In this document: one piece after another, positions 3,791 to 46,300 of the stretch | Numbering within the stretch: the stretch's first letter is position 1 | Layout: each line of letters starts with the position of its first letter | NCBI GenBank assembly: GCA_903813345.2 | Contig: CAIIXF020000005.1 | Location: 17,983,375-18,047,374 of the forward strand | DNA length: 64,000 bases | Direction: 5' to 3' | Origin: Owenia fusiformis | Taxonomy: Eukaryota > Annelida > Polychaeta > Sabellida > Oweniidae | Position numbers and translations under genes: made by a program | Notes under the pieces: model-generated | What the model was told of the DNA's origin: nothing | The model's database searches: none | What the model saw: only the letters and a program-made list of their open reading frames with translations

Positions 3791-5182
3791 ATTCTTTACA
3801 GATTACACATATATATGTTGAGAGTGACTGTCACATTTTTGGGAAATAGTGCAGCCTCGTGAACATGTCAGTAGACAGGATATCCCCTTGGAAAAAATAT
3901 TTTGCACTATTTCCCTAAATGACAGTCACTAATTTTAGCCAAGGAGATTTATTGGTTATGTAATCCTTTGAATCATAAACGTCTTTGATTTATTATGTAA
4001 ATTAATATTATATACTGTATAACATGAAATATTGCCATGGATATAAAGTTGCCGATTGCCGAATGTAAAACAGAAACGGTAACATAAAATTCGGAAATAT
4101 AATTAAGTAATTGAAGATCGATCTTTGTGGGCGATAATATGGTAGTTGTCTAACGTGTGTCAACTTACTGTAATAGGGTAATTTTCTAACGAGTATCAAC
4201 TTACTATACTTAAACAAAAATCATAAATAAAATATGATAAAATCGAAGCTTTATTCCCCAGCATAAAATTGCAATAAAAAGTCATAAGACTTAAAATGTC
4301 AGAAGATCTAATTGTATCCAAGTGCTTTGGAAATCCCAGTATTAAAAGTTTTTAATCCCAATATTAAAAGTTTTTAATCCTGTTATTAATTGTCCTGAGT
4401 CTATTGAATTCGGATAATCACTCAAATTGTCACTCATAATGTCAGGTTTTCTGAGTCAGTAAATTGAAGGTGATTAAAATTCAGTTGTAAATCAAAATTA
4501 TATTAGAGGTGTCAGCTTAGCAATATTTTATTTGGCTTTACATTTAGGGGTGTCAGGTCGGAAAACTTTTATTCGGCAATAACAATTTTGATCCAATTCT
4601 GAAAATAAAGCACCCGGATTTAATACATGCTATACAGTACTATGTCATCCTTTGCATCATTAATCTTTGATTTATTAGAATTTGAGGCGTAAATAACTGT
4701 TTGACATTTTTTACCAATTAGAAATATTAGATATTTGAGAGAAATTATCTCAAAAGTACATTATAATGACAGGGGCTTAGTCATTAGTCATTTAAATGGA
4801 TAGGAACAGAGCGATCTCTTTATTATTATTTGGGAATATCCTGCCTACTGTTCCCTCTGCCTGCAGCCTTGTTAACATGTCAATGGACAGGATATCACTT
4901 GGGAAAAGCATTTTGCACTATTTCCCTAAATGACAGTCACTAATTTTAGCCGAGGAGATTTATTGTTTATGTAATCCTTTGCAAGTGCCCCCCCCCTACA
5001 AAACAAGTATATATTGACATGGAATTGAAGAGGAAGTATGACTTAATACTTAAAATGTTTTCTGAGAATTTTGACATTTGACCATGACATTAGGGTGGTT
5101 TAAAGATCAACTTTGAGAGATGCTATTTTTGTCAAAATTTTGCCATTTTCTAATACAAGAAATGAAAGCAATTGGCTTAATT
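3791..5182. other. Intergenic with a duplicated 130-bp segment
   Basis: No gene seen. A segment of about 130 bp at roughly 3848-3990 (containing CTATTTCCCTAAATGACAGT and ATTTTAGCC.AGGAGATTTATTG) recurs in the same orientation at roughly 4858-4985. This marks an undescribed dispersed or locally duplicated repeat. A short tandem of TATTAAAAGTTTTTAATCC lies near 4338-4380. Confidence 0.5.
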
Positions 5183-5950
5183 ATCCCAACGAACCAAGTT
5201 CGGTAGGGATATAGTGAAGCCCTCCGTCCGTCCGTCCGTCAGTCAGTCAGTCCATCCGTCCGTCCGTCCGGAAGATAACTCAAATACGAGTTGACGGATT
5301 TTCTTCATATTTAGTGGAAAGATGTATATTGGTGAATAGTTGTACGCAAAAAAAAAATTTTCAAGATGGCCGCCGCTTTAAAAATGACGGGACTTTTTCG
5401 CAAAGATCATAAATTTTTCATTCTAAACCAAAGTAATTAATATTATTGTTTAAAATTTTGGTTGTATATTTGCCACATCTATCTATTTCACATATATTCC
5501 GTGTTTTTCATCCTGACCCCCAGGGGCCGTGTATGGGGGGTCAGGAAAACAGTAATTTTCGCTAATTTTTAGATCTTTCTGAAGTATAGCTTTATTATAC
5601 TCAAATGAATTAAGAGTAGATTGCAAATATTGTATCTTTTTTCTGATTCGAGCCTCGTAAAATTCAAAATGGCCGTCTAATGTACGATTTCGCAATAATT
5701 TTTCGATTCCTTCAAAGTATGGCTATATTATACTCAAATTGAAGGAATTTTGGAGTAGATCACAATTATGGTATTATTCTTCAGATTTGTACCTCAGAAA
5801 ATTCAAAATGGCTGCTTTGCAGGAATTCGCAATTCTAAAATCTAAATTTTTCAATTTTAACCAAAGTAATGAGTATAATTGATTGGAATTCGGTAATTGA
5901 TATTTTGTTCGTTGGGATTTGCTACTCCGCGGAGTTGCCATTATCTAGTT
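5183..5950 (+). mobile_element. Second copy of the ATCCCAACGAA / TTCGTTGGGAT repeat family
   Basis: The left end ATCCCAACGAACCAAGTTCG is followed by a GTCCGTCC/GTCAGTCAG microsatellite. The right end TTCGTTGGGATTTGCTAC is followed by CGCGGAGTTGCCATTATC. The interior has AAGATGGCCGCC-type words but fewer tandem units than the 2408-3790 copy. No ORF of note. Confidence 0.7.
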
Positions 5951-7738
5951 TTGATTGTGACTGATAATAAGAGATGTGAATAGAAATACAAATATTCTTA
6001 ATAATAAATTCTCAAGGGCAATTACAAGAAAGTCTTGAGGATAAATCCCCATATGGGCATTTTATAATGACAATGATAAGTTTTGATATTATTTTGATGG
6101 TAAACATAGTGTGTACCCATATTCAGACAGTCTTGTGATAGGGGTTCTTACTGCCAATTTTTCAAAGAAACTGAAAACTAATGCCACTTTTTGAAATTCC
6201 ACATCTCAAGAAAAAAGGTTTATCTACAACTTGCAATTGGTTTTAAAAGTAAATGGAAGAATGAGTTTTTTTGGAAAAAGTCTAAGTGGAGCAATAGTCT
6301 GTTAAATGGACCTGTTCTTTTGTAGAGTTAGATACAGACTTGAATGACCTCACACCTATAAAAAAAAACATTTAAAACAAACAAAAAATGAATTTTTTAC
6401 AGGAACCAAGTTAATTTGATTGCTAAATGGCTTAGTAAGTTCAGTAAATGGAAGTTTGCAAATACCAAGTTACCAAGATAGCAAGTTTATTTTTTTTCAT
6501 AATCCACTCTTGTTATACCTGTCCTTGTGGGAGTTGATCTCAGATTGTGTGGGAGGAAGTACTTGATAAGTCCAAGCTAGAATATTACAGATACTTCACC
6601 TGATAGGTTTTCCAAGATTATAACACTTGGATTTAAAAAATGTGATTCTCTTGTCCTCTTACACATGATCAATGGTTGCTGTTGTTTCTCCACAAAGACA
6701 CCTCATTATAATGTCTAGGCCTGGAACTAATATCGTCAGATTTGACATAACAATTGATCTGAGTGTCTTAGTTGTGTGTTCTTCACAAATCCTCTGAATT
6801 GTTGCTATTGTTTCTGATACAGATATGTCCATATAAAGTGTCTATATCCCGATCTTATACATTCTTCAATGAAGTCTTGGGTTAATGTTAAATATGTATT
6901 TTAATGACATTTAATTATTCTATATTAAGTCAAATACTGTGAATCTTTTTCATATTATGGCAAATTTCGATCAAAGACTGGCATGTTGAAAATCATCCTG
7001 TGACAGTTCAATTTGTTATATGGCTATAAAAGAGAGATGTTAAATTAAGTTGATTCATAGTGATTCAACTATAAACCACTGGAATTCCAGAAAGATAAAA
7101 GTCCTCTGTGATCTTCACATTCTCAAAAACGCAGGCATTCAAACAAATTCATTTGCATCCTGTAATTCAACTTGCTTGTTTCTTGTCATGAATTTGAAAG
7201 TTTGACACATATTGTTTTGAAATTGTTTTCTCTAGCATTTGCACATTGTTTGTTTGTATCCAACACATAATCATAGGAATCCAAATCATTCATATGATCC
7301 TCTCCCATTTTGGCGCATATATCTTTCCAAACATGTTGGGAGGCTGAATTTAGCAAGTGCTACTACATCACGTGGTGTATATGTAAGCCCAAATGCCAAA
7401 GGGAAAGAACCAGAAACTGTATAGAAACCTAGTAAGAAAAGAAAACTCTGTGATCAGTTGTGATAAAATAGTTGAAATGAAATCATACCCTTTACACCCT
7501 AATATCATACAAGATAAAGCATTCAGTTATAAATAATGTGGGTCAGACAAAATCCAATTTCAAAGTCCATAATCCACCAAAGGGTCAACCAAAAATGTTA
7601 GTGTCAATGAAAAAGACATCAAAAAAGCTGAAAATGATGGATATAGCACAAAAAACATGATTTTTGAATTTTCTTCTAACGGCACCCCCTATAGGCCTCA
7701 GACCCCATTCATGAGGTTTATACACAAATATGTTCCAG
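5951..7738 (+). other. Intergenic / presumed 5' flank or intron of the XDH-like gene
   Basis: AT-rich sequence without a recognisable exon. I searched for the expected preceding XDH segments (2Fe-2S cysteine motifs, the QCGFCTPG-type loop, the FAD-domain region before SVGGN) and saw none. The short plus-strand open frame at 7239-7424 matches nothing known to me. Confidence 0.4.
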
Positions 7739-10700
7739 AGTATTGGTGGAAGCATATTGTCTTGCCAGTCAACTTCTGACTTGAGCACCATGCTGATGGC
7801 AGCCCAATGCTCCTTGAATATACAATCAAAAGGTCAGTCTTTATTCCTATTAGAAGGCTAATTTTAACTTACCCGATGGGCAACTAGTGTATAAACTAAA
7901 GGTTTCCAGATATCCTTAATGTAATCTTCCATGGCTTATTAAATTTTGCAAAACCTTAAAAAGTTTTAAGTTCATGCACAATAGTTCATGACAAAAGAAT
8001 TTTACTTTGTTGATCTGTCCCTTGATTATTGTTCTTTATTCAGATATATTTTATTCCTCTTTTTAAAAAAGACTTACTTTTTACAAACCTAACAATTATA
8101 CAGTGATACATACTCCATCTTTCATTTTACACCAAAGACAGCTCAAACAGGCTACATTCGCAATTACAATAAATTATCAAAAATATTCCCTGACTTGTCT
8201 TTATACAATTTATACAGAATAATAGCATGCGTAATGTATTCCAGATAACAAGAGACAAGTAATATTTGATGGAGAATTCTACAAAGATTCTGGCACAACT
8301 CTTGAACCTACAGAGGTTTTAACATCTATAGTTATTCCTCATACCAAACAGGTACCTACATTCCCCTATATAAGTTTGGCAACTGGAAGGCTTCATTTCA
8401 TAGTGTGTATAAAGCCTGGCTATATATTTTAAGATCAAAATAGGTGGCAAGGAGTAAAGTCATACCTTCCAAATTGATCGCCATTTTTTGACATTTCAGA
8501 ATGAGTACTATGCAGCTTATAAAGAAGGAGAGAGAAATGCCAATAACCTAGCAATAGTCAATGCTGCATTCCGTGTGAAACTGCAGGAGAATGATCCAAC
8601 CATTGATGAACTTGTTGCTGTGTTTGGGGGACTGGCTCCCACTGCTAAATGTGTCAATCTTGAAAAGTTCATTGGACAGTGAGTGGTCTATGTGTATTTG
8701 ATTGTTAAAAGGTGGTGGTGGATATGTATTGTTGAAACTGTAAGAGGAACGCATTCGTCCGTCCATCCGGGCAATAACTCAAATACCGTTGGCCCGATTT
8801 TGTTTATATTTTGTACACATATGGGGGTAGAAGTTCTGCTCGAAAGTCGATTTCCAAAATGGCTGCTCATTTAAAAATGGTGGCCATTTTAGTGCCGATT
8901 TTACAGTTATTTAGGTGCAATATGTAATACTGTAATAGCAATATGTTTTAAATGTAAAAAAGTTATACATTATATAGCTAGAAATGTATTAAATCTATTA
9001 AAGAAGCACATGGCAGCCATTCTGAAAAATGGCTGCCTTTACTCGCTATTTTACGATTTTTGCTGTAACTCGAAAAGTAGTGGAGCGATTTTCTTCATAT
9101 TTGGTATGTGAATACTATAAGCATGGCACACTGTCTAATAACACTTTTGGTAGAAGGCAGCCATTTTGAAAAATGGTCACCATTTTAACGTATTTTATTA
9201 TAACTTGAAAAGTAGTGGAGCGATTTTGTTCATATTTGGTATGTGAATAATATAAGCATGGCACATTGTCAAATGACACTTTTGGTAGAAGGTGGCTATT
9301 TTGAAAAATGGCTGCCATTTTTGCTATATACTTTGTAAAAATGCCAGCCATGGCTGTTCGGTGGGATTTGCTACGCTTTGGAGTTGCTGTTGTCTAGTTT
9401 AATATATTTGAAGTACTGTACTTCTACTTAATTTGGCGGTCATTTTAATTTGGCTGATCTGCCAAATAAAACGGCCGCCAAATTAAGTAGCTGCCAAATT
9501 CAATATTTCATATTTGAATCATAAATTTACATATATGGTATATACATTTCAATATTGCAAGTTCGTTAAATTAAGTAGTTTGCTAAATGTTCAAAACACC
9601 ATGATCCACTTAAATAAGTAGCACCAAATTAAGTAGAAGTACAGTGATAGGTCCCTCTGGTAATATTTTTATTATATTGAATTGATGTTATATGATATAA
9701 CATATTCGAAGAAATTTCATTTTTTAAACTCCATTCTAGCACATGGGAAGACAAACTAGTAGGTGATGTGTATGATTTCCTTGCATCAACTCTACTGCCT
9801 GCAGAAAATAGAGATACCGATGATTCAAGGTTTAAAATCAAACTGGCTCAGGGATTTTTCTACAAGTTCTACTTATCAGTGGTATTAGCATTGAAAAAGA
9901 AAGGTGTGAGTATTTTTGTGGTCAGACCTACAAAAAGTGATATTTGAATTGTATCGTGTATACTCATCAAATGTTTTAAATGTTTGCGTTTCCATCCATT
10001 TCAATCTATTCTCAATTCAGGTTTTGCTTTTAAATGCTATCACTTTAAATATTTTGAGTTAATATTGTGTGAATGCAATAATAATACAAAAACTTTCACC
10101 ACTTACATGTAGGGTACAGTGACATAAATTGTGTGACATTAATGTCAAAGAAGTGGTTGACGCTTTCATATGATTTTGGCATTTATGTGGTCCATGCTGC
10201 CCAGAACAGTTCAAATTTCGTAATGTTTCATTTTTTTTACTTTATCATTGTAGGTTGATGGCATTGATATACCTAGCTCCATGGAGCCTTTCAGTACCAC
10301 ACTAGACCCTGGTAGTTTCCAGAGTATTCAGCTTTATGAGAGTGTACCCTCAGGGCAGCCAGTGGATGATCCCCTAGGGCGACCAGTTGTACATAAATCA
10401 GCCATTTTACAGACCACTGGGGAGGCTACGTATCTAGATGATATCCCACCATTTAAAAGTAAGTGCAGTCATATGTGTAATTTCGATTTTTGGCTATCAC
10501 TGGACAGGATACTTATGGAGCAATACAATTTCATGTTTGAAGACGATCCAACCCCCATAGCAGACAATTCCATAAATTAATTTCATGATATGTGCATTAA
10601 CTAGCTAGTGTACATGTATATGTACATTTGAAAGTCCCTTGCAGGTCCCCCTATCTTTGATTTATCAAGGAAAACTGCAAGAAAAGTCTGAAAATATGAT

Positions 10701-13700
10701 ACATAAAATTTATTTCTGGTATGACTATACATACAACTCTTTACATCTCCAACCCCCAAAAAATAATCACTTGTAGGTTTAAACCGAAAAAGCAATATCC
10801 GCCGAGTTGACAGGATTATTTGAGACCCTCATTGTGTCAAAAAAGCAACTCTGACTATTTAGCGGCCCACTAGTAGATATTGTATGATATAATACAATCT
10901 GGAAAGACAAAACTGGAAAAACTTAAAATGAAATATTATTACAGCTCAACAAGAATGAGCAATTATTACAGGTGCTAGTACCTTAATATGTTTCAGATGA
11001 GCTCCACATGGCGATGCTACTGAGCACTAGGGCCCATGCCAAGGTCATGAAGGTGGACACAGCAGATGCACTGAAACTACCAGGTGTAAGGGCCTACATC
11101 GATCATACTGATGTAACAGGAAGTAACCAGTTTGCTGAAGATGAAGTTGTGTTTGCAGAAGAAGATGTAAGTTCATTGTTTAAGGTAGTTCCACACTTTC
11201 AGAATTTGGAAAAATGAAATTTGTGAAATGTCATTTAAAACAAACTTTGATGTTTGAAGTTTAAATTATGTATTTTATGATAACATACATGTATTAAGAA
11301 GTCCGATCAAATTTGACCCCCTCTTATGTAGTCTCTATATATGAAAAACTGTCCAATCCTGGTGCCGAAAGGGAGCTCCGCTCCAGAAGAGAATATGTTT
11401 TACCAGTGAGAGCGTCTGTGAAATACCTAAATTCACCAGCCATAAAGCCTATCTCCATTTGGAAAAATCTTTCAACTGAAATAAAAACATCGCCAACCCT
11501 AGCAATATTCAAGAAAAACTATAATAAGAAATATACATTTCATAAAAAGAATATTTTAACAAAAAATCTTAATTTGAAAAGGTCTTCTGAAACTAAACTT
11601 AATAAAATAAGAAGCGACCTTGCCCTTAAAAGTGACTTTTTTAGACATAATTTCAACAACATCATAGATCCTTCTTGCCCCTGCGGCCACCGAAATCAAG
11701 ATAAGATTCATCTTTTACTCGACTGCCCTCTAACCGCCATACATAGAAATGATTACATACAGAACATCCTAAAGTTAGACAATCTTGATATTATGTGCTA
11801 TTTTGGAAAAACAAGAAAGCAAAAAATAGAATTTATACTTTATGGAGATGAAAATTTAAATAGTGAACTGAATACAAAATGCCTTCAACTATCTTCAAAT
11901 TATATCGATAACATCTTAGAATGACCATCCTCCTCATTTCACATCATCTCTCATTAACACTCATATACATCATCATGGGCAAGACCTGGTGGACGACCGT
12001 CTGTCCGTTGCAATCCTACACACTCCAGTGACTTATTATATGTTTTTAACTTTCTAGAGGGGGGCCAATAATGCTATGTAGCCTCGGCCCCTCACAATCT
12101 ATGTAAATAATTATGTTGAATATTATAGAAATAAATAACAATAACCTAAAAAAAAAAAAATTAAGATAAATTTTGAAAAGATATTTTCCATTTTACTATG
12201 TAATGGTTATGTTTGAACTTAAAACGCCATTTTCTCAAGACCACAAAAAGTCCACATACGAGTATATAGGAAACACTGGTGACTATATACCGACCTAGTC
12301 CCTTGTTTTTCCATGAGCTATATATAACATGTAGGTCCAGTACCAAGGGAAGGTGATTGGAGCTATCATAGCAGAGAACAAAGTGGTAGCACAAAGGGCA
12401 GCTAGGACATTACAAGTGCAATATGAGGACCTAGTCCCTTGTCTTAATATAAACTATATATTGCATGTAGGTCCAGTACCAAGGGAAGGTGATTGGAGCT
12501 ATCATAGCAGAGAACAAAGTGGTAGCACAAAGGGCAGTTAGGACATTACAAGTGCAATATGAGGACCTAGTCCCTTGTCTGACAATACAAGTAAGTATAT
12601 ACAGTATATACAATACCTGATATATCCTGATTTCATTTTGTTTAACAGCATCACTTAAAGGTGCTACAAAGATTAGGAGAGTTGAGAGTCGTGTTGAGAC
12701 TAATTTTTTAGCTCACATGGTGAGCTATTGCAATCACTCACTTGACTGTTCTCTGTCTGTCCATCCATCTCTCTTTCTAAACGCATGTCTTAATTTTTTG
12801 AAATCCTGTAGTTGAAAATGATTTTTTAAGGATGCTATCAAATTAGAACGGTTTGCCAAACCAACAAGGCAAATTATAAATGGAGATGTAGACAGTGTCA
12901 TGGCAAACTGTGATGTCATCCTTGACGATGAGATGGTAGTTGGGGGACAGAAACACTTTTACTTTGAACCTGTCAGCGCACGCTGTATTCCTGGAGATGG
13001 AGGAGACATGGAAGTAATGTGTTCATCACAAAATTTAAGCGGTATCCAGGTGTGATAATATTCATATTCATTTGTAATTTTGTTCAATTTCTGGGAATTT
13101 ATTTCCAGTTATAACCATCAGAAATTCCAGGAACGATGATACATTAAAAAATAAACCCCGATAGTGCAAGAAATGCCATGTACAGGGTGTTTCATATGTA
13201 TGCTCCCCCCATAAACTCATAATTGTACCATTGTTCCTTATGGAAAGTTACATGACATTGCAAAGTTTCAGAATCCAGTGGTGCCCCTGAAAAAAGATAC
13301 AATGTATCAAAGTATGTGGGAACGTGTCATTTCGAGGGGAATTTCTGGTCATTCTGAAGGCAATTTAAAGGAAAAATTAAGTTTCTGTATTGCAAATTTC
13401 TAGCAGTTGTCATCATGGCAGAGTTCAGTGCACATAGGTGGGATAGTTATGCGCAAAGATATATAGATAGGATTCATGCAGTGGCTTATAGGGGGGTTAG
13501 AGACCCTGGTGCGACCTCTATCACTAAAAATGGGTATGAGACAAAGTGAACAGAGCACCAGACTGAGTCTAAAAATGACCAGACGTTACCCCTGAAATGA
13601 TCCCGTGCCCACAAACTTTGATACATTGTATCTTTTTTCAGGGACACCCATGGATTCTGAAACTTTGCAATGTTATGTAACTATGTAACCTATGTAACAT

Positions 13701-16700
13701 AAGGAACAAAATGATATGTAACATGATAGGGTGGCAATACTGCATGTATGAGTTTATGGGGGGGGGGGGTGCATACATATGAAACACTCTGTAGAATACC
13801 ATCAATAACTGTATTTTCTTTTTTTATTGTTAATATTAACAGAGTGCCGTATCGACTGGACTAGGAGTTGCTGCACACAGAGTAGTGGCGAAAGCACAGA
13901 GAATAGGAGGAGGATTTGGGGCCAAGAACGCCCAGCCGAAATATGTGGCTGTCCCTTGTGCTGTAGCAGCTAATAAGTAAATAGTAATTTATGAATTATA
14001 AAGGGTTTGTAAAGATTTACTGTATTATTATGGGTATCTTAAAATAAATGTGTCATGCCCTTCATCTTTTTTAAATATATATTCCGATATGTCAAGTATC
14101 TTGAAAGTGTATTAAAGTGTCTTAAAATGTATCTTCAGATTGAAGTGTCCTGTGAGGTGTGTGCTGGACCGCAGTGAAGATATGCAAGTCATTGGAGGTA
14201 GACACCAACTACTAGTCAAATACAAGGTATAGCAGGGGGCCTATAGAAAGGGATGTTTGGGTGTCTCAACTGCTGATTACAGCATTCATGTATTACGTAC
14301 CTAGCAAAACTTTTGTATGGGAGGGAGTCAATGAAAAAGTAGGTGGCCTATACATAGATGTGTGATGTCATTAATAAAAAGTAGCCATTTAAATAAAAGT
14401 AGAGGGCCTGCTGTGCTAAAATGGTTGGCCTGTATTGGCAGAAAAATGGTGGCTGTTACAGTGTTACATGTTATTTTAGGTTTTTGCTGTAACTTGAAAA
14501 GTAGTGGAGCGATTTTGTTCATATTTGATATGTGAATACTCATAAGCATGATACACTGTCTTATGACAGGTTCGCTAGTAGGCGGCCATTTTTAAAAGGG
14601 TCACCATTTTTATGCACCGAGGTATGCTATTTTAGTTTTTTGGTATTTCTCAATACTGGAGTACTTCCAGTACTGGAGTATTTCTCAGTGCTGGAGCGAT
14701 TTTGTTGAAATTTAATGTGTGACTTTTTGACTTCTCCCCTTATTTGAAATCACTTTGTTGAGTCCGTCCTGTTTTGTGTAGTGTTCCAACATTGAAATCA
14801 TAGAAAATCCAGATATCATTTGTAAAGTATTTAGGATAAAATTTTCCCATTAGGTTGGATGCTCCAAAGATGGTGTGCTGCAAGCCTTGGATGTGACTGT
14901 TTACTACAACTGTGGTGCCAATGCTAACTACACTGGGTCGGTAAGTGGGGTACAGAGAAGCTGTCCATCTCTCATTCATTTATTATGCAATGATGCATGC
15001 TTTTTATTATAATATTCCATTACTTTTTTGTTCCTTTTCTATATTTCAACACCACAATGTTCTTTACTATAGGTTCTTGAAAAGACCCTATTTGAGGTAG
15101 GGAACTGTTACAAGGTGCCTAATGTATGGGTGACTGGACGCTGCTGCCTCACAAACATCACACCTTCTAACACCATGAGAGGACTGGGAGTGCCATCTGT
15201 CATCCTTGTAGCCGAGAAATGGATGATGCAACTTGCTGCAAAACTCAATATATCTGGTGAAGAGGTGATATGTTCTAGAAGATATGAATGTTAGAATTAA
15301 TCTGAAATGGGTATTAAACTTTTGGGATTTTTGGCCTTTCAAATCGCCTCTCTTCCATCTGTTCTTTCATAATTGTGTCTGTTGATAACAATTTCAGAAA
15401 CTGCCATTCATCTAAACTAATGTCCATTTTATGGGGTCCATCCTGCACTGGCAATTTACACCATTGTTTCATTTGCTTTTTGTCCTCAAAATATTGTATT
15501 ATGACAACATATGGGTCTGTATCATTTATAGTGTTTCCAAATTAAATAATACATGTTGCTATTGATCTTGAGAAGTAATAGATATAGTATCAGTGTGAGT
15601 TTCAGCTCACCAGGTTTTGTAGTTTTCTCTGGATGCTCAAACAATGGTTGAATGAGTTATCTCATTATCTATGATATAAATCCATGAAGATGAAGCTCAA
15701 GGTCAAAACTGAGTTTGTTCTACACTCACCGCAATGCAACGTGTTTGGTACTGAAATCAAGTTGAAGATCCAGGCCTTTGTGTTCCACCTGTCATAATAA
15801 GCATATACCTTTAGCTTCGACAACGTAACTTCTACAGAGAAGGTGACCACACTCACTACAACCAGTTGCTAGAGGGGGTCACCCTAGAGAGATGTTGGAA
15901 TGAGTGCATGGACTCAAGTCAGTATGTGCAAAGGAAGAAAAATGTGGAACAGTTCAACAAGTAAGATAATTATTCTATATTTGTTTCTATTTTCATTATA
16001 ATGAGATATAAAATGAATATCCCTTCAATCTCCAAAAGGCATATTATAGAAAGGTACATGATATGCATTACAAGAAGAATATTACGGGTAAGGATGAGGG
16101 ATTTCAAATTGATTTCAACTTGAGTTGCTATATTTGTTATTAATTTAATAACTAATATTAATTTGTGTCTTATCATCACTAAAAATGGATTCTCCAATCT
16201 ATTGCTGCCACTTTGATACAACAATAGATCAACAATCCTAGTGTAGTATTCTAATACATATATTTTACTTAGATGCTCTATTTTCTCTCCATTTCTTTAA
16301 TAAAGCTTAGCACATACAGTATAGTAAAACCTGTGTAAGTGGAACACGCTTGATTCCACTAAACTGTCAAATGTTCCACTCAGGAATGTTTTGCTTTTAA
16401 TTGTAATTCCATGGTCACATTTGCTCCGATTGTCAACACCCGCGCACGGCTGTTCAGTTTTTTGTTCTAAATTGTAGCAAATGTGACTCAGGCATGATAG
16501 AGGTGTTCCACCATATTAACCTATATTACTGTAATAATATACTGGTATTTAATTTTACATAGAGAAAATAACCTAAAAAAGCGTGGAATAGCATTGATGC
16601 CTTTGAAGCAGGGTGTTGGGTTTAACAAACTAGTTGCATACCAGGGGGCAGCACTGGTGCATATCTATACAGATGGCTCTGTAAGACTCACGCATGGTGG

Positions 16701-20953: not shown

Positions 20954-21409
20954 TAAAATTGGGTAGAGGTTCTATGTAAGCAGTCACGACACTTAGAGCA
21001 TTTTCCCATGTAGGACACCCATGGAAATTCTCCTTGTGTCCACTACAAATTTGGGAAACTTTATTTCTACATTTCACATGCAAGCCACATCAATTCATAT
21101 GTAGTTTCCTCTTAATTCCACGAACACTATGACACACCATTTGTCTCTAAGCTCAATGTCCAACATGTGTCAGGTACCTATACACATCGCGACCGATGCA
21201 AGCAGTCACGAAAATTCAACAAATCTCGTCCACATCAGTTATGCCTGTGAAATCTCCTCCACACGTGCGCACGTATACGTAGTACTAACTCCCTTACATG
21301 CGCGAATCTCGCCCACATCCGTTTTGCCTGTGTATTCTCCTCTACACGTGCACGTAGTACTTACTAATTCGCCCTAATTCCCCTGTTTCACATCTTCGCA
21401 CAGATTGGT

Positions 21410-22055
21410 GGGGTAAACGGGGGTACGGGGAAACGGGGGTACATACTCATGCATTTACATATCTCCTATACACTTCATCCTACTATATTACGTACCGTGG
21501 TTGGCGGGGTAAACGGGGTAGATACTCTGACATGTAATTACATATCTCCTATACACTTCATCCTACTATACGTATCGTGGCTGGCGGGGTAAACGGGGTA
21601 CATACTTCACATGTATTTACATATCTCCTATACACTTCATCCTACTATAAGTCATGTAAGTACCGTGGTTGGCGGGGTAAACGGGGTAGATACTCTGACA
21701 TGTATTTACATATCTCCTATGCACTTCATCCTACTATACGTACCGTGGCTGGCGGGGTAAACGGGGTACATACTTCACATGTATTTACATATCTCCTATA
21801 CACTTCATCCTACTATACGTACCGTGGCTGGCGGGGTAAACGGGGTACATACTTCACATGTATTTACATATCTCCTATACACTTCATCCTACTATATTAC
21901 GTACCGTGGTTGGTGGGGTAAACGGGGTAGATACTCTCACATGTATTTACCCATCTACCATACACTTCATCCTACTATACGTACCGTGGCTGGCGGGGTA
22001 ATCGGGGTACATACTTCACATGTATTTACATATCTCCCATACACTTCACACTCAA
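21410..22055 (+). repeat. Left subterminal minisatellite, about 80-bp unit, about 8 copies
   Basis: Units read GTACCGTGG(C/T)TGGCGGGG, TAAACGGGGTA(C/G)ATACT, CACATGTATTTACATATCTCC and TATACACTTCATCCTACTAT. Two subtypes alternate, one with ACATACTTCACATG and one with AGATACTCTGACATG. The G-rich strand is plus here. Long open frames across the array are artefacts of the repeat. Confidence 0.9.
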
Positions 22056-22199
22056 AGCCACTTAAGTGTGAAATAGATTTTGTTAAAAAGTGAAAAAAAT
22101 TCTAAAATGTTTTTTCAAATAGACATATAGTATATATCTGTATACAATTGTACATTCGTTACCCAAGGCATTTAAGTAAACTCCAAGGGAAATTGGCGA

Positions 22200-22858
22200 A
22201 TTTTCAAATTGAAATTAGGGTCCGTCTCAAACATGAATTCCTTAAGTAATGCGGGCTCAGCAGGTCATTATGACAGTTTGATTCAAAGAAACGCAAATTC
22301 TTTGGCACGCTCTGTAACTAAGAAAGATCGAGGTAGTAAAAAAGGTTGTAGGTGTGGTGTCAACCGAATAAGAAGTGGAAAAGAAATCTAATGCTGTGTA
22401 GGTAGAAGATGCCCATGTTCTTCAAAAAATGCTAAATGTCAACAATCGTGTGCTTGCCCTTCAAAAAATTGTAACAATGGTAAACCAAAAAAGGAATTAA
22501 ATGTGAAAAAAACTAGAAGGAGACTAACAAAAGCCAGCAAGAAACATGTAACATCTTTCGAATACTGTATTTGTCGAACAATTTGCAAGAAATTAATACT
22601 GGGCCGACGGATAAATTCCAATTTTATCTTATTGCCGTGATATACAGATTGCTAATAAAGAGAAAGGGTAAAGAAACGGTAGACGTGAATAGGGTTTATG
22701 ATATATACTGTAAGTGCATCGACGCAATTAATAAAAGAAGAATGGCAAATGATTCGATTACGAAAATGAACATAAAACAAGTAAAACGTGTTGTCACAAA
22801 TATAGACAAAAATGAATTTATACTATATTCCAAAGTGTGTAAACGAAATTCTTAAAAT
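22200..22858 (+). pseudogene. Broken CXC-type cysteine-cluster ORF inside the 5.4-kb transposon
   Basis: One frame runs from ATG near 22233 (MNSLSNAGSAGHYDS...) to a stop at 22389-22391. It resumes in the same frame with a dense cysteine cluster: CRCG before the stop, then CCVGRRCPC, CQQSCAC and CNNG. It then becomes strongly basic (KKTRRRLTKASKKH). A second frame (about 22574-22855) continues with a helical, Lys-rich segment ending KVCKRNS, implying a frameshift near 22565. The spacing resembles tesmin/TSO1-type CXC DNA-binding clusters. Related CxC clusters accompany KDZ transposases, so this may be the DNA-binding part of the element's lost transposase. No catalytic domain is visible. Confidence 0.6.
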
Positions 22859-23597
22859 ACAATTGCCTTTAAACGTTTGATATTGTGGTAGACTTTGCCA
22901 TTTTCAATATTATTGCCTCGTGGACGATGGTTTACACTAGACATATGGCGCGCATCGCCCCGTGATGTATAAAGTTAGCAAAGAAGATGTGCAGCTGAGA
23001 TAGGAGGATGAACTTTAACATATTGAATTTTGTTTTCAAAATATAAATTATCCATACTTTGCAAATTTCAAAATACCATCTTAGTTAGTACATGTTCGAA
23101 ATGTGTATTGGGAAAATTTAATATCATGATCACTTGTTATAACACGAGGATCACTTTCTTTTACATTAGGCGTAGATATAAGCATATACGCATTTTTAAT
23201 AATAGCTTAATGCTACTAATAGGCGACTGATCACTATAATTGTTGGGTAACGGTGGTCTCAGTTATTACACTATTTTCATTCAATGATTTAATGACATAC
23301 TTTTATGGTCCCTCGATTACATACATCTGCTCTGTACATAATGACCACTTGACAAGTTGCACTCTCCAGATACACGAATGTGCGAATGATCTACTGATAT
23401 TTGAACTACGATGTCTTCTACAGAAACATTCAACAGTTTAGTCCCATGACAGAGCACATAATTAGTCGAAATTAACATTTGGAAATATTGTGTAACATTA
23501 TGTAAAACGCCACGCTGAAAATAGGTTCAGTCGCTACTCATTAATTTAGATTTTGAGTGGATGATTAACTTACATTATACGTTTGAACTTTACATTA

Positions 23598-24451
23598 GTA
23601 GAGAGATTTCGCACGGCGTGAAAGTACAACTTATAACGTATACTTATACTTATAACCAAACGTACAAGGTGTTTCATTATGTGGGCTTTTCGTCAGGAAA
23701 GATCTTCTCGGACTGTAATAAATAAAGGTCAAAGGGATGCCATTTGTTCTTTCTTGAATTGTAGCATGTTTAGTTGATCCAAATGTGTTTGTCTAGAATA
23801 AAATAGGCTCATATATAGTACGTATGTTATAGACCTATCTTTTATCAAATTGACTTTTTGAGATGCTCGTTATGAAACACCCTGTATGTCATTTGTTGAG
23901 CTACTGAATGGGTCGTTTCCAGGAATTGCTAGAACCTACTAGTTTGATTGGTGTTTCAAATTGATGGTTTAAGTATTTGATTGGATACTGTTCCTACTCA
24001 GCCAATTGTTTTTAAAAAATGCTTGCGGTCAATTGTTCCACACACATGCAGGTAAAGCTTTATACGGAGATCCAACTGTATACGTTGATCATCTCGTATA
24101 TATACCGTTTTGTAAGTTCATTGAACTTATACTGATCATGAAAACTTTGAAATAATCAACTTGTTTATGCCATGACACGCTTTAAAGGATTATGACTCAC
24201 TTTAAAAGATCGTGTTTATAATACACTACAACTACTAGGACACGGAAGTAAGCATTTAAGTATAATGTGCATAATCTACACGTGCATTCACAGTTTCTAG
24301 TTGATGGAGCTTTTCTGTATCGGGAATAGTTATGTTCCATTAAGTACAATTTGAAATTGATTTTAGTAAATATAATAGTTCGACATGACCCTTTAAAGTA
24401 TACGTATACGTATAAGTTGTACTTTCACTTATGTGCGAAATCTCTCTAGTG
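23598..24451. mobile_element. Nested TIR element inside the 5.4-kb transposon
   Basis: The left end TAGAGAGATTTCGCAC.. followed by GTGAAAGTACAACTTATA is mirrored at the right as TATAAGTTGTACTTTCAC.. and GTGCGAAATCTCTCTA. About 850 bp, no coding frame. It contains a further MITE at 23665-23884, so three elements are nested. Confidence 0.75.
23665..23884. mobile_element. 220-bp TA-flanked MITE (CARGGTGTTTCATWA ends)
   Basis: The left end CAAGGTGTTTCATTATG comes after TA. The right end TTATGAAACACCCTG comes before TA. The ends resemble those of the 13183-13791 element (CAGGGTGTTTCATATG), suggesting one Tc1/mariner-like family. Confidence 0.75.
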
Positions 24452-25261
24452 TTTTAAAGTATTTACGAATTAAATAACAGGTAGATAGATATATATTGAC
24501 ACAGATAAATTTTATTGAAAATATCCAAAACTTCTAATTGTGAATCTTAAATCATGTTTGTAAATTAAAATAATGATGAAGGAAAATATGATATTTATTT
24601 GATATATGCAGAGAATTTGAAGTTTCAAAACAGCAATATTTACACATTAACCAATGGGCTAGTTGTAGAGAACAACCTAGTAGTTAACTGCCATCTATAC
24701 GAGTCCTGGCTCCCATTATGAACATAACAATAAATACGTCCTCACCAACAAAATTTAATAAATAATATTCAAGATGTGTCAGTTTTTAACGTCATTCTGG
24801 TAAAAATAAAAAATGGAAATGAACTGCACTTTTAATCAATGAAATGTTAACGCACGGCGCACAACGCAAGGTTACTAGGAATACATTGGTAAAAGGTGCA
24901 TTTTATAAGAATAATATCAACATTCTTCATAACAATTAAATTTATTACCATTCTTAATAAACATAGTTACACATAAGCTTCATTCACTTTAGTAAGTACC
25001 CAATATTCAAGAAATGTTTTTTACTAGTTATTATTACAAATACACAGGCAAGGCTTTATGTAGATGTATCTGTGAAATGACTATATCACAACCAGACAGG
25101 ATTATTTATTAAAAACCAATTACATAAATGTCCATACTTTATATAGTTATTTGGGAGTCGAACCAAAACCCAAAAATGTAAGTTTTTTAGTGTACATCCA
25201 CACAACTAATGCAACATTGTGTAAACAAATCATTTAATATGGATAAGATATACATAAGGAT

Positions 25262-26240
25262 ATGTACCCCGTTAATCCCGCTTCCCAGGTTATGTATAGG
25301 TGCCTGACACAGTGTAGCAATGTACAGTGTTTATGTATACATGTAGGAGCTTGAAACAATGTAGTAACTAATATATTCTATGTAACATGTAAAGGTATGT
25401 ACCCCGCTTACCCCGCTTACCCCATGGTATGTGTAGGAGCTGTCTCACAGTGTAGCAATGTAGAGAATACATGTAAAGGTATGTACCCCGTTTACCCCGC
25501 TTTCCAGCCTATGTATAGGTGCTTGACACAGTGTAGCAATGTGTAGCAATGTAGAGTATACATGTAAAGGTATGCACCCCGCTTACCCCGCTTACCCCAC
25601 CTCCATGGTATGTGTAGAAGCTGCCTCACAGTGTAGCAATGTAGAGAACACATGTAAAGGTATGTACCCCGCTTACCCCGCTTTCCAGCCTATGTATAGG
25701 TGCTGGACACAGTGTAGCAATGTGTAGCAATGTAGAGTATACATGTAAAGGTATGCACCCCGCTTACCCCGCTTACCCCACCTCCATGGTATGTGTAGAA
25801 GCTGCCTCACAGTGTAGCAATGTAGAGAATACATGTAAAGGTATGTACCCCGCTTACCCCGCTTTCCAGCCTATGTATAGGTGCTGGACACAGTGTAGCA
25901 ATGTGTAGCAATGTAGAGTATACATGTAAAGGTATGCACCCCGCTTACCCCGCTTACCCCACCTCCATGGTATGTGTAGAAGCTGCCTCACAGTGTAGCA
26001 ATGTAGAGTATACAGGTAAAGGTATGTACCCCGCTTACCCCGCTTTCCAGCCTATGTATAGGTGCTTGACACAGTGTAGCAATGTGTAGCAATGTAGAGT
26101 ATACATGTAAAGGTATGCACCCCGCTTACCCCGCTTACCCCACCTCCATGGTATGTGTAGAAGCTGCCTCACAGTGTAGCAATGTAGAGTATACAGGTAA
26201 GGATATGTACCCCGTTTACCCCGCTTTCCAGCCTATGTAT
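25262..26240 (+). repeat. Right subterminal minisatellite, 181-bp unit
   Basis: The word AGCAATGTGTAGCAATGTAG recurs at exact 181-bp steps (25539, 25720, 25901, 26082 frame starts), with two partial units before. Each unit has two half-units with GGTATG(T/C)ACCCCGCTTACCCCGC. This core is the reverse complement of the core of the 21410-22055 array. The identical 62-codon open frames per unit are by-products. Confidence 0.9.
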
Positions 26241-26354
26241 AGGTGCTTGACACAGTGTAGCAATGTACAGTATACATGTTGCATGGTTAGAAATGGCTAA
26301 GTGCCGTGACATTTTAGCTCGTGACTGCTTACATAGAACCGCAGCCTAAAATTG

Positions 26355-27193: not shown

Positions 27194-27924
27194 TTAATAA
27201 TGATGGGAATCGTGATGTCCATGATGGCCATAGCTGGTGGAGTGGTGGGCAACATGTCCGTATGACTGGTGTCCATGAGCATGGTGGGCATCATGGTGTC
27301 CGTAGCTGTTGGCATGGTGTCCATGAGCGTGGTGTCCGTGAGCGTGATGTCCATGAGCACGGTGTCCGTGAGCATGATGTCCATGAGCGTGGTGTCCGTG
27401 AGCGTGGTGTCCATGAGCATAGGAATCTACTTTGCCATCACGGTTAGCATCAAGAGCATCTGGGACTCCATCACGGTTCTCATCACCATATCCTGGAATT
27501 AAAAATCAGTTTATCCTTCCATTAATTCATTGTCAGTTGAATTGTATTTTAGTAATATTAATATTTTTTCATGAAAAATATAGAAATATCACCTAAATTA
27601 AATTATGAATATTCAAAAGAGGACATTTAAATCTACAAGATGTAAAAATATCAAAATAGTCCAAAGCAGGCGTAACGTCCAGTAGACTGATGAACTGCGT
27701 TCTCCTAACCGAGACTAGTCTTTTATTTGTTTTCAGCATTATCCGAAAGTGAGTTGTTCTAGGAGAGTCTTTTCAGATGATTTGAGTTCTTTGTTTAACC
27801 TACCATATCCATGACCATGGTGGTTGCCATGGTGACCATGATGACCATGGTGACCATGACGGTAGCTTGGAGTTGCCATAGCAACGGCACACAAGGCAAG
27901 GACGACAACAGCAATTCCGTTCAT
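27194..27924 (-). CDS. Secreted histidine-rich protein with two Ca-binding-type loops
   Basis: Coding exons on the minus strand are 27804-27924 and 27194-27492, joined in phase 1, giving 139 residues. A signal peptide (MNGIAVVVLALCAVAMA, 1-17) precedes a Gly-His segment (HGHHGHHGHHGNHHGHG). Residues 44-63 form two abutting DxNxDGxxD loops (D44, N46, D48, D52; D55, N57, D59, D63), like EF-hand, dockerin or thrombospondin-3 loops. Then come seven AHGHH pentapeptides (66-100, one reading AHGHR) and a His/Tyr-rich tail ending HHDSHHY. His is roughly a third of the protein. Secretion plus His and Asp clusters suggest binding of metal ions (Zn, Cu, Ca), as proposed for molluscan histidine-rich plasma or matrix proteins. 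The function is inference. The gene has a noncoding first exon and a TATA box. Confidence 0.85.
27565..27735 (+). repeat. Dispersed repeat shared with an RSBN1 intron
   Basis: AAAAATATAGAAATATCACC, GAGGACATTTAAATCTACAA, TGTAAAAATATCAAAAT and GTCCAAAGCAGGCGTAACGT recur in the same order and strand at 50270-50430. About 150 bp, with no inverted ends noticed; it lies in the intron of the His-rich gene. Confidence 0.75.
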
Positions 27925-43381: not shown

Positions 43382-46300
43382 ATGGCAGAAAATGGAAACA
43401 CAAAATTTAGTGAAGAATTCGATAGAAACTCCAACGATAAAACTCATAAAGGCGGAACTAGTGATTGCAGCAAGATAGTTCAAGATACAGAGGAAATCAA
43501 GGACAATAATTCAAAAGCTGAGACAGGGTTTGTCAGTAAAGCTGAGCTGAGTAATTTACCAGGAAGAATGGCACATGTTGAAAGTCACGTTCTAACAATA
43601 CAGAAGACAGAAACAATGGATGTTAGTGGCTCAGATGATAAGATATCAGCGCTGAAAATCCCTGCGTCTCAACGGACTGATCCCTGTATTAGCCCTGACA
43701 ATGTCACACCTGAACGAAAGCGCAGACGCATTCAGCATGATTATCGAAGACTGTCAAGTTCTGGATATTTGGATGATTATACAACCACGGTCAAGGAAAA
43801 GCGATATTCAACAAGCGAATCAGAGCTTAGTCTCTCACCAACACCTCCAAAGGTGAAGCCCTTGAAAATCAAGATACCAAAGCATTCACCAAGGGGTGAA
43901 GAAGAAATTGGTAAGGTTCAACATTTATTTCATCATTGTCATGAAATCTAACTTGGCACGAAGCCAGTTTCAATAATTTATCTATCTTGTGCATGTTTTA
44001 TCTTAGAATATTATTGACTGTTTGCTTTGAAAGTACTTAGAATGTCAATCTGTCCACATATACATGTAATTTCCAATTTGATTAATAAAGTGACTATTGA
44101 ACATGCTTATATTGCTTGATTTCAGTAACACATTCTGTATTATTGGTTTTCAGAAACTGAGCTTGGTGCAGTGAAAGAAGATCATGAGCACAAGCATAAA
44201 GCACACAAGCACAAGCATCATAAACACAAACATAAGAAGTCAAAGATGAATGGTGACTCTGAGTCCCCACCCATAAGCAACAATGACCTCAAACAAAAGC
44301 CATTATCCAATACTGATGATTCTATAAAGGAAGAGAACAATAGCAAAGTGAAGAATGACATGAACTTAGCCAATCCATCGGAGGAGTCGCAACTCATGCC
44401 TAACAAAAAAGAAAAGCATGTCTCACAGTCAGCGAAATCTAATAAGGATGGTGGAAAATTTAGGACTCCAACTTCAGATATAGAAGCTGAAAAAGTTGTT
44501 AAGAAACACAAAGATCGAAGCCAACATATTTCGAAACCTGAAAAACAGGAAAATGAAATCTTGTCATTGTCAAAGGTAAAAGAAGCAAAAGAGGCTATGC
44601 TGAAAAGGACGGGGAGTCAAGAAACAATTCACAAAGGCAAGCAGGATGCAACAAAAACCACATCAAGTTCCATTATTGACTCAAACACAGCTCCTCAGAT
44701 GAAAGTCCCAGTAAATCAAATAAAACAAGAATTTGCTGTTCCTAATCAGAAAACTCTTGTTATACCCCAAACAGTCCAGAATGTCCAGATCAAGCAAGGT
44801 ACAACAACACAACCTGTAGTGATAAATGCATCGGAGAAACCAACTCAGCCTATAGTTAGAGTCATTAGTCCTGGACTCAGCATGAAATCACCAAGGATTG
44901 CACATACTCCAAAATCTACCCATCTTCAAATGCCAGAGAAAAAACAAATACATATCATTACTAAGAAGCAGAATATTTCTCTTTTGCCAACATCAGAGGC
45001 ACAAGACAAGCAGCATCCCAAAACACCTACTAAAACTCTCCCTGTGTCAAAGTTTGAAATTAAATCACCAAACCCATTGGATACGAAGGAGTTTTTTATG
45101 AAGAAGGCAGATCCTAGTGAAACAATGGCATGCCCTCATCCTCTTGGAGTAAAAGGTATCATTGCAAGGAGGCAAAGTGAACCTGCGATTAAGCCCAAAG
45201 ATCTGAATTCTCCAAAGTCTCAAAGTGCCACTAAATCCAAGAAGTCAGCAACCAGACATGCCAGTGATTCTAGCACACCAAAGAAGATCAAGACCCCTAA
45301 GTCCACTCAAAAAGATATCAAATCTAAGGACACTCCTACAAAGGTCCACAAATCAAAAGACACTCCTAAAAAGGAGCAAAAAATTCTCTCAGGGACTGTT
45401 AAAAAACACATTGCACATAAAATTGAAATTGATGCACTCAAGCAACAATTTCACGAAGCTGCAAATCGTAAGATTGAAAGTGGCTCTGAGGTGAAGCAGC
45501 CTGTATCTAATGGTAACTCCTTTATCACTGATACAGACAGAACAATCCGGTCTCTTAAGGGCCCAGCTGGTGATGTCCCTCAGAAGTACAAAGATCTAAT
45601 GCATATAGAAGTTGATCGTAATGGAGGGGCATCAGTCATCCATGTATACCAAGATGAGCTGGCAAGTTTGTCTAAAGCAGAAATGGATGAATTCGTCGAT
45701 GTGTATTTTGAGGAGGTATATAGAGAAGCTCCCTTTGGCTGTTCTAAACATGTCATGGGGATTGTCCATGGTGCCTGCCGCTACATGCCAGACCTGGTGG
45801 ATTACTTTGGGACCCTGTATGAGCAAATGACGATTAAAACAAGCACAATGGGTAAAAATGACATTGACACAACAAGCATGGGGAAGTTCAGGGAACATGT
45901 CAATGCAACATACTGTAATGGGACCTACAGATACGGTCCATTGTTGCAGCTCAGTCTTGTTGGCACGGTTCATGAAGAGGTAAGTGACCATTTACTTTTA
46001 TTTGCTACTAATCCAGTGATTGTTGCAGTGAAGTAACAAGATTCAGAATTTGATATATTTGTACCGAATCAAAAATAAAAATGAAAAATTCAAAATAAAA
46101 TTCCCTATTTTTCAAATTCTCATCTAGGTACACTCCCAGAAATTTTTTCAAGAGAAATTTACAACTGAATTCTTGCCAAATGAATAGGCGCTGTGCATGG
46201 CAAAATATGTTAGGTCTTCTAGTATTTTTTTTGAACTGAGACGCACGCTTCTAAGATATGAGATCTATTAAAAAAGGCGCATCATCACCAACGTGCAAAA

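Follow-up and report, generated by a model that had tools for sequence, protein, structure and literature searches.

The stretch described here belongs to a family of DNA transposons that was mobile until recently, and it is one of the damaged copies. It lies in a window of 64,000 nucleotides from the annelid Owenia fusiformis, and its family comprises 16 copies with paired ends in the same genome, 2.6 to 17 kb in length, each flanked by an 8-bp target duplication. An earlier note, made from the letters of the window alone, had proposed a DNA transposon that is flanked by 8-bp duplications and has minisatellites in opposite orientation just inside its ends. That proposal is supported by the 16 copies, by further occurrences of the termini, by two insertions for which empty sites exist and by near-identical copies.

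In the window, TAAAATTG adjoins the element on both outer sides, and the termini that abut these duplications, GGTAGAGGTTCTATGTAAGCAGTCACGA and GGCTGCGGTTCTATGTAAGCAGTCACGA, have the same base at 25 of their 28 positions, as the earlier note had stated for both features (Table 1). One difference between the two ends is constant in the family: TAGA stands on the left in all 16 paired copies, as against CTGC on the right, the latter block being present in 15 of the 15 copies that retain the right end. The inner terminus recurs subterminally as a direct repeat, GATGCAAGCAGTCACGA, which on direct reading equals TATGTAAGCAGTCACGA at 15 of 17 positions. Comparison of the window with Rfam gave no matches.

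Table 1. Features of the transposon copy, in window coordinates.
Feature	Position	Strand	Basis
Left target-site duplication, TAAAATTG	20954-20961	.	Sequence read and copy comparison
Transposon copy of 5,385 bp with an interior of group A	20962-26346	+	Borders are the homology ends against 15 other paired copies
Left 28-bp terminus, GGTAGAGGTTCTATGTAAGCAGTCACGA	20962-20989	+	Copy comparison and genome terminus pattern
Subterminal direct repeat of inner terminus, GATGCAAGCAGTCACGA	21195-21211	+	Direct reading of sequence
Left array, unit of about 79-80 bp, core on plus strand	21426-22048	+	
Broken remnant: OTU C-terminal part and CXC cysteine cluster of ancestral gene	22239-22852	+	
Right array, 181-bp unit that is a dimer of units of about 90 bp, minus-strand core	25385-26266	-	
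Right 28-bp terminus, GGCTGCGGTTCTATGTAAGCAGTCACGA (minus-strand reading)	26319-26346	-	Copy comparison and genome terminus pattern
Right target-site duplication, TAAAATTG	26347-26354	.	Sequence read and copy comparison

A genome-wide search with the terminus pattern, allowing up to 3 mismatches, found 43 places, compared with none for the reversed pattern that served as control. Nearly all left-end matches (24 of 25) begin at the border base, and the remaining one is an internal duplication within another copy. The earlier note had named homology running past the borders, or a lack of other copies and of 8-bp duplications elsewhere, as evidence that would speak against a transposon; neither was encountered. 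The target duplications are exact in 13 of the 16 copies and agree at 7 of 8 positions in two; in one copy the duplication is exact but displaced by 3 bp because of an end deletion. Empty sites were obtained for two of the 15 insertions queried: that of e7C3 has 40 paralogous matches at 98-99%, and that of e9C10 has one, at 94% over 148 bases. Moreover, the copies e7C12 and e7C3 are equal at 6588 of 6590 bases. The family thus has what is expected of a TIR DNA transposon, namely fixed inverted termini, multiple copies, a constant target-site duplication and empty sites, and it has in addition the long inverted ends of tandem repeats that characterise foldback-like elements. There is virtually no chance that it is not a transposon, having arisen by segmental duplication or by the spread of satellite-flanked DNA. 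Array copy number does differ among loci, as such a process could explain, but the borders are fixed at differing sites, and the 8-bp duplications in every copy together with the paralogous empty sites refute it.

The arrays of the ends face each other in the window, as they do in all 16 paired copies. Tandem-repeat analysis of the window gave a period of 79 and 7.7 copies for the left array, which holds three exact copies of a core (seven under a looser pattern), and a period of 181 and 4.9 copies for the right array, with a period of 91 likewise reported and six exact core copies. Of the two opposed minisatellites described earlier, with units of about 80 and 181 bp, the facing orientation stands, while the longer unit proved to be a dimer. 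The idea that the two ends have different unit architectures did not hold: left and right units resemble each other outside the core too, so the arrays have diverged and their architectures are not unrelated. In e3C3, one kind of unit makes up both arrays. The core common to left and right units is GCGGGGTAARCGGGGTACATA; the shared 22-mer of the earlier note is thus correct for this core but not for its first G, which is an A in the right units of that type. By the pattern used, the core points inward from the left and the right end alike in each of the 16 paired copies, and it is specific to the family, its 21-base form occurring at 142 places genome-wide and that of the control at none. Core columns are kept at 19-20 of 20, whereas left spacers of the window type agree at only 20-23 of 50 positions with three other unit types, a comparison that is post hoc because the core was chosen for matching. 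These observations fit the suggestion that the shared core is functional, and the arrays are probably clusters of putative transposase-binding sites centred on it.

Array-bearing ends are already known from Galileo and Tetris, as these elements are described. Galileo, a member of the P superfamily in Drosophila, is reported to have foldback-like ends, 0.5-1.2 kb long, in which internal tandem repeats hold binding sites for the THAP domain of its transposase (PMC3688188). Our family resembles it in its foldback-like ends with internal tandem repeats. It differs in its coding remnant, which is OTU-CXC, and Pfam matched no P-type THAP transposase among the selected ORFs scanned. Tetris, a foldback element of Drosophila virilis, is described with long inverted ends containing tandem repeats and with three structurally complete copies that have no transposase ORF and duplications of 8-9 bp, other copies reaching 10 bp; the same paper cites a transposon of the sea urchin whose inverted repeats are long (PMC4079207). 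Unlike Tetris as described there, our family has 8 bp throughout, facing arrays with diverged spacers around one kept core, and the OTU-CXC remnant. The TU foldback elements of sea urchins, to which the earlier note had pointed, have array-built ends and 8-bp duplications, a likeness of description rather than of compared sequence. The family might be a Mutator-type foldback element, as suggested for Tetris, in agreement with its long array-built ends and with the 8-10 bp duplications described for Tetris (PMC4079207). We consider this very improbable, as the duplications of all 16 copies fit 8 bp and not the 9-10 bp range, and the scanned ORFs showed no Mutator domain. In Herves, a hAT element of Anopheles, 100-bp imperfect tandem repeats are reported in the left end, from 146 bp inside the terminus, and each end has a short subterminal motif that the transposase binds (PMC3143072). 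Herves differs from our family in that its repeats are described at one end only and in that it codes for a hAT transposase.

Only the termini and arrays are common to all copies. Twelve of the 16 interiors are of one shared type (group A), three are of another and one is diverged. Group A interiors contain remnants of a gene for an OTU protease and a cysteine cluster (CXC), recognised in 11 copies in one search and in the twelfth, e4C6, by tblastn with the proteins of distant relatives. The OTU part of the family has a similarity of only 29% over 248 aa to one such relative, L036, and its own Pfam OTU score is below the cut-off (E 0.01). The cysteine-cluster ORF remnant that had been noticed between the arrays of the window is indeed present, with stops and a frame change; the better reading of it is as the 3' portion of a gene that codes for a DDE-like/OTU/CXC protein.

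A DDE-like region was not found in the 16 copies, where tblastn with the relatives gave OTU and CXC pieces only; a DDE/D transposase of their own, which marks a TIR transposon, was not found in these copies. Non-autonomous members of a family may be without one. The earlier note had hoped for a full-length copy with a transposase, and none was found among the 16 copies and nine partly read loci with unpaired termini (L028 and L039-L046), at which tblastn gave only chance-level matches (E 0.03-0.07). These nine, of which L039-L041 contain runs of N, were read out of 13; the four left out lie on C434, C269, C1 and C7. The longest copies were rejected as autonomous candidates: the length of the 17-kb copy is mostly due to a 10.2-kb insertion that is nested in it and has TTAA duplications, that of the 12.3-kb copy e12C1 comes from an LTR-type insertion, and that of the 16-kb copy is accounted for by nested repeats and a 409-aa 'DQAHEQNN' ORF. 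The latter was treated as foreign to the family because only one of its 122 genome-wide matches lies within the 16 copies.

Four distant loci, L035-L038, have a DDE-transposase-like region, and an OTU domain was detected downstream of it at three of them. In L036, OTU and CXC ORFs come after a DDE-like ORF of 288 aa. L035 has the same order in decayed form, with a Helicase_C piece, barely above the cut-off, upstream of the DDE-like part. At L038 the DDE-like part precedes an OTU that is above the Pfam cut-off, while at L037 the DDE-like part alone was detected (by tblastn); L037 is the one of the four relatives in which the putative E is absent. Pfam gave no family for the 288-aa region at E 0.1, a PDB sequence search with the DDE-like region gave unrelated weak matches only, and NCBIfam gave one weak irrelevant match for four proteins. 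With the OTU region, the top PDB matches were unrelated (E 0.004), and viral OTU-bearing chains appeared at E 0.02-0.1; viral contigs scanned with the relatives' proteins contained no relative. A scan for pairs of inverted termini flanked by duplications of 7-10 bp recovered the window element as positive control, plus one weaker chance pair. The four loci are candidate transposons only: around them the scan found no TIR-plus-duplication pair at 8, 9 or 10 bp and one weak match at 7 bp, at L038. Shuffled L036 gave 0.4 chance matches per run, and the other three loci, when shuffled, gave none.

Duplications of 8 bp are made by hAT, P, Merlin and Zisupton/KDZ elements. The copies could therefore be non-autonomous members of one of these superfamilies, moved in trans and carrying the OTU-CXC gene as captured cargo, in agreement with the duplication length (that of hAT included), with the evident interchangeability of the interiors and with the array-type ends described for Galileo (P) and Herves (hAT). 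We find this unlikely, since none of their transposase domains, hAT among them, was matched by Pfam among the selected ORFs scanned from the copies. Capture also does not predict that the same OTU-CXC piece adjoins a DDE-like region at other loci. In Pfam at E 0.1, the DDE-like region of 288 aa had no KDZ match. A relative of the helicase-bearing Academ (AcademH) or Kolobok (KolobokH) elements is improbable as well. The helicase piece upstream of the DDE-like part of L035 makes this relative similar to AcademH, a helicase-encoding DDE lineage, but a helicase was seen at just one of the four loci. Kolobok elements make TTAA duplications, which argues against that group. AcademH is set apart by its description, which gives 9-10 bp (PMC10045372) as against 8 bp here, and membership was rejected. 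In several families of Ginger1 the transposase has a C-terminal OTU domain; the duplications of these elements are of 4 bp (CCGG/CCGT), their ends are TGTNR and their integrase is Gypsy-like (PMC2836005). Our family differs by its 8-bp duplications and GG ends, on which Ginger1 membership was rejected, and L036 has no Pfam integrase match.

We consider it fairly probable that the window element is a non-autonomous copy of this TIR family, with cis signals in its ends and a DDE-OTU-CXC ancestor, mobilised in trans. Since copies with unrelated interiors have moved, the 28-bp termini and the facing arrays are probably the cis signals for movement. The autonomous ancestor most likely coded for one multidomain protein joining, in this order, a DDE-like transposase region, an OTU cysteine-protease domain and a CXC cysteine cluster, and the present copies would be its deletion derivatives. 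As group A copies keep only the 3' part of this gene, their recent movement would have needed a protein supplied in trans, the source of which was not found in the assembly. Such a DDE-OTU-CXC-type protein may move the family by cut-and-paste chemistry, with the DDE-like region as a catalytic RNase-H-fold domain, and may bind the core of the arrays. One may speculate further, and only tentatively, that we see a recently active tail of a DNA-transposon superfamily that has no classification so far, whose transposase joins DDE, an OTU ubiquitin protease and CXC DNA-binding, whose facing GGGGTAARC-type arrays are the main recognition, and in which almost any DNA between the arrays travels.

The combination of features seen in this family did not appear in the titles and abstract openings of the literature searched. 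Foldback-like array-bearing ends are present in unrelated transposon groups, and the role of the arrays is still open in the literature (PMC3688188). The present family offers a natural comparison, in which a 20-base core was kept while the left-array spacers changed. Copies with unrelated interiors moved recently, and the paralogous empty sites provide clean sequences from before and after insertion. Protease-carrying transposons are recurrent, as in Ginger1 and some Helitrons, and the role of the protease is unexplained (PMC2836005). If the link between DDE, OTU and CXC is true, the family would represent a further type of transposase with its own ubiquitin-type protease.

The earlier note had read window positions 20954-26354 as a 5.4-kb DNA transposon with an 8-bp target duplication, matching 28-bp termini and inverted subterminal minisatellites, and each of these features stands. 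The duplication is found on both sides of the copy, its termini are equal at 25 of 28 positions, and its left and right arrays are opposite in orientation. About 1 kb to the right of the element, window positions 27315-27418 hold a 15/30-bp tandem repeat with the unit TGGTGTCCATGAGCG; a 635-aa open frame at 44129-46036, without a Pfam match, resembles by eye an RSBN1-like animal gene.

Coordinates of the transposon copy and its arrays in the window
Feature	Position	Length or period	Remark
Transposon copy	20962-26346	5,385 bp	flanked on both sides by TAAAATTG
Left array	21426-22048	period 79	
Right array	25385-26266	period 181, also 91	

The searched genome comprised 498 Mb in 525 contigs, the window being C5:17983375-18047374. 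The left border proposed earlier holds throughout it: of at least 25 matches to the left end, 24 begin at query base 1, which is the border, and the remaining one is an internal duplication within the diverged copy e3C3. The right end gave at least 43 matches, 17 beginning at the border and the other 26 further inward, mostly on array units. Pairing the ends yielded 16 copies, which are 2.6-17 kb long and spread over nine contigs (15 were fetched besides the window copy), and the 8-bp duplication that the earlier note expected at other insertions is present across them: exact in 13, 7/8 in e9C8 and e7C3, and in e6C11, whose right terminus is mostly lost, exact (ACCGTTTC) after a remaining GCC. 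The 15 copies that keep both ends show no strict consensus at their target sites, where the mean G+C is 29% and the second base is A in 11. The terminus pattern, allowing up to three mismatches, occurs at 43 genome places versus none for a reversed control; by our count 30 of these belong to the 16 paired copies, and the other 13 have no partner. The flank outside the duplication on the right of e5C5 (locus L024) contains GGCTTACATAGAACC, a sequence similar to part of the terminus and possibly left over from another end. Two further loci, L040 (C4) and L041 (C10), carry diverged left ends; behind each come runs of N and a satellite-like array that repeats every 152-153 bp or so and is 95-96% alike between the two loci over 3.9 kb.

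Both arrays contain a 21-base core, GCGGGGTAARCGGGGTACATA, with 142 exact occurrences genome-wide versus none for a control. Among the 100 places listed, 99 are in the 16 paired copies and the other, at C4:19329346, is 264 bases into a left end that has no partner. A looser pattern finds inward-reading cores at both ends of all 16 copies, 3-11 on the left and 2-10 on the right. Unit consensi were aligned in a fixed register, and 20 core columns were compared with 50 others, a post hoc test of conservation, as the core had been picked for its match. The window-type left unit agrees with the right type-1 unit at 19/20 core and 23/50 other columns, with the e3C3 left unit at 20/20 and 21/50, and with the e3C3 right unit at 19/20 and 20/50. 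The remaining three pairs show no such core excess (19-20/20 and 40-45/50). The two arrays of e3C3 are thus of one unit kind and form a long inverted repeat made of tandem repeats. Most simply read, both arrays were originally alike and the window-type left spacers turned over, the core being kept because a protein putatively binds it.

What the copies have in common is their termini and arrays, which suggests that these are enough in cis. Twelve copies, including the window copy, have interior A; e12C1, e9C8 and e9C10 have the unrelated interior B, which BLAST finds to be 97% alike across some 4 kb; and e3C3 matches the others at its ends and arrays. Some interiors hold further sequences. In e17C7 (L009-L010), a nested 10.2-kb insertion at element positions ~2870-13050 stands between TTAA, has AGAC-TTATTT-like ends and encodes a P2X7-type C-terminal domain (Pfam P2RX7_C, E 6e-13); by its duplication and by eye it looks Kolobok-like. 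In e12C1 (L015-L016), positions 5546-10379 are a nested LTR-type insertion in which a 1461-aa open frame lies between identical 155-bp direct repeats. At 13307-14533 of e16C5 (L012) lies a 409-aa open frame containing the motif DQAHEQNN; this frame has no Pfam family and 122 genome-wide matches, many broken; it is probably a separate repetitive gene family.

Several observations bear on age. An alignment of e7C12 with e7C3, which is on another contig, has 6,588 identical positions out of 6,590 and a single gap column. Ten other copies with all or part of the group A reference (1.85 kb, from e16C5) differ from it by 0.5-0.9%, and two others from the group B reference (from e12C1) by 0.7-1.1%; e3C3 has diverged by about 28% across the left 470 bases, a figure that depends on the alignment. 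Empty sites were sought with the flanks of 15 insertions, each pair joined by one duplication copy and all combined in one 3,120-base query; scoring covered 40 of the 5,295 first-look candidates and gave 44 matches. Among these candidates, the joined e7C3 site had 40 matches across its whole length at 98-99% identity: e7C3 sits in an abundant repeat, other copies of which are uninterrupted at that point. The e9C10 join was spanned by one match (C6:15780486-15780633, 94% over 148 bases), e9C1 had three matches to its left flank only, and the other 12 sites had none among the 40 scored, which is uninformative about those sites. The match to the e9C10 join and those to the left flank of e9C1 share contigs with sites of the e7C3 type and are no more than about 1 kb away from them (C2:26546467 and C2:26547337 are one example), so the three insertions may all be in the same abundant repeat or in a cluster of repeats.

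Interior A holds what is left of one gene. The C-terminal part of an OTU-type cysteine-protease domain, with the motif HYDSL, is joined to a cysteine cluster (CXC) in a 269-aa ORF of e16C5; upstream, in a different frame, is the OTU active-site motif GDGNCFHHAI. Twenty of the ORF's 22 genome matches are in 11 group A copies, the twelfth, e4C6, retaining an OTU piece; the two distant ones are on C4 (31%) and C8 (40%). At the C8 locus, L036, an open 288-aa stretch precedes an OTU ORF and a CXC ORF; at L035 (C4) a decayed DDE-like part precedes OTU and a cysteine cluster; L038 (C9) has a DDE-like part and then OTU; and at the other C9 locus, L037, tblastn detects the DDE-like part only. The DDE-like region has five genome matches; all of them fall within these four loci, outside the transposon family. 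The label is based on spaced acidic residues: the two loci that align there have LDNC, all four have [KQ]LD[IL]F and three of four have NE. Pfam recognises OTU at L038 (28.2 bits, cut-off 23.3) and Helicase_C at L035 (23.7, cut-off 23.5); Peptidase_C65 (E 0.003) and MSL2-CXC (E 2e-4) at L036 fall below cut-off, and the 288-aa region has no match at E 0.1. The 269-aa ORF has no Pfam match, and the family's own OTU piece reaches E 0.01 at best. The putative link of the gene remnant to L036 rests on tblastn (OTU against e9C1, E 4e-28, 29% over 248 aa; CXC against e16C5, E 5e-5). Many invertebrates have multidomain proteins of a similar kind.

No P, hAT or Mutator domains were found in the selected ORFs scanned. 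Ginger1 has an OTU at its transposase C-terminus, but its 4-bp duplications and TGT ends differ from those of the O. fusiformis family (PMC2836005), as do the 9-10-bp duplications given second-hand for AcademH (PMC10045372) from the 8 bp found here. The end structure works like that of Tetris (PMC4079207) and of Galileo, in which footprinting placed a THAP-domain site of the transposase some 70 bp in from the end; further sites were identified in the Galileo tandem repeats (PMC3688188).

The family inserts with an 8-bp duplication and fixed ends, has moved recently, and has moved with unrelated interiors. The source of its enzyme is either absent from the assembly, too diverged for the searches used, or in gaps or unsearched stretches. 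One may propose that a DDE enzyme makes 8-bp staggered cuts, and that this enzyme or a partner would bind the core sites in both arrays and bring the ends together. The surviving copies, in turn, would be products of internal deletions that removed the enzyme, and would have been mobilised in trans.
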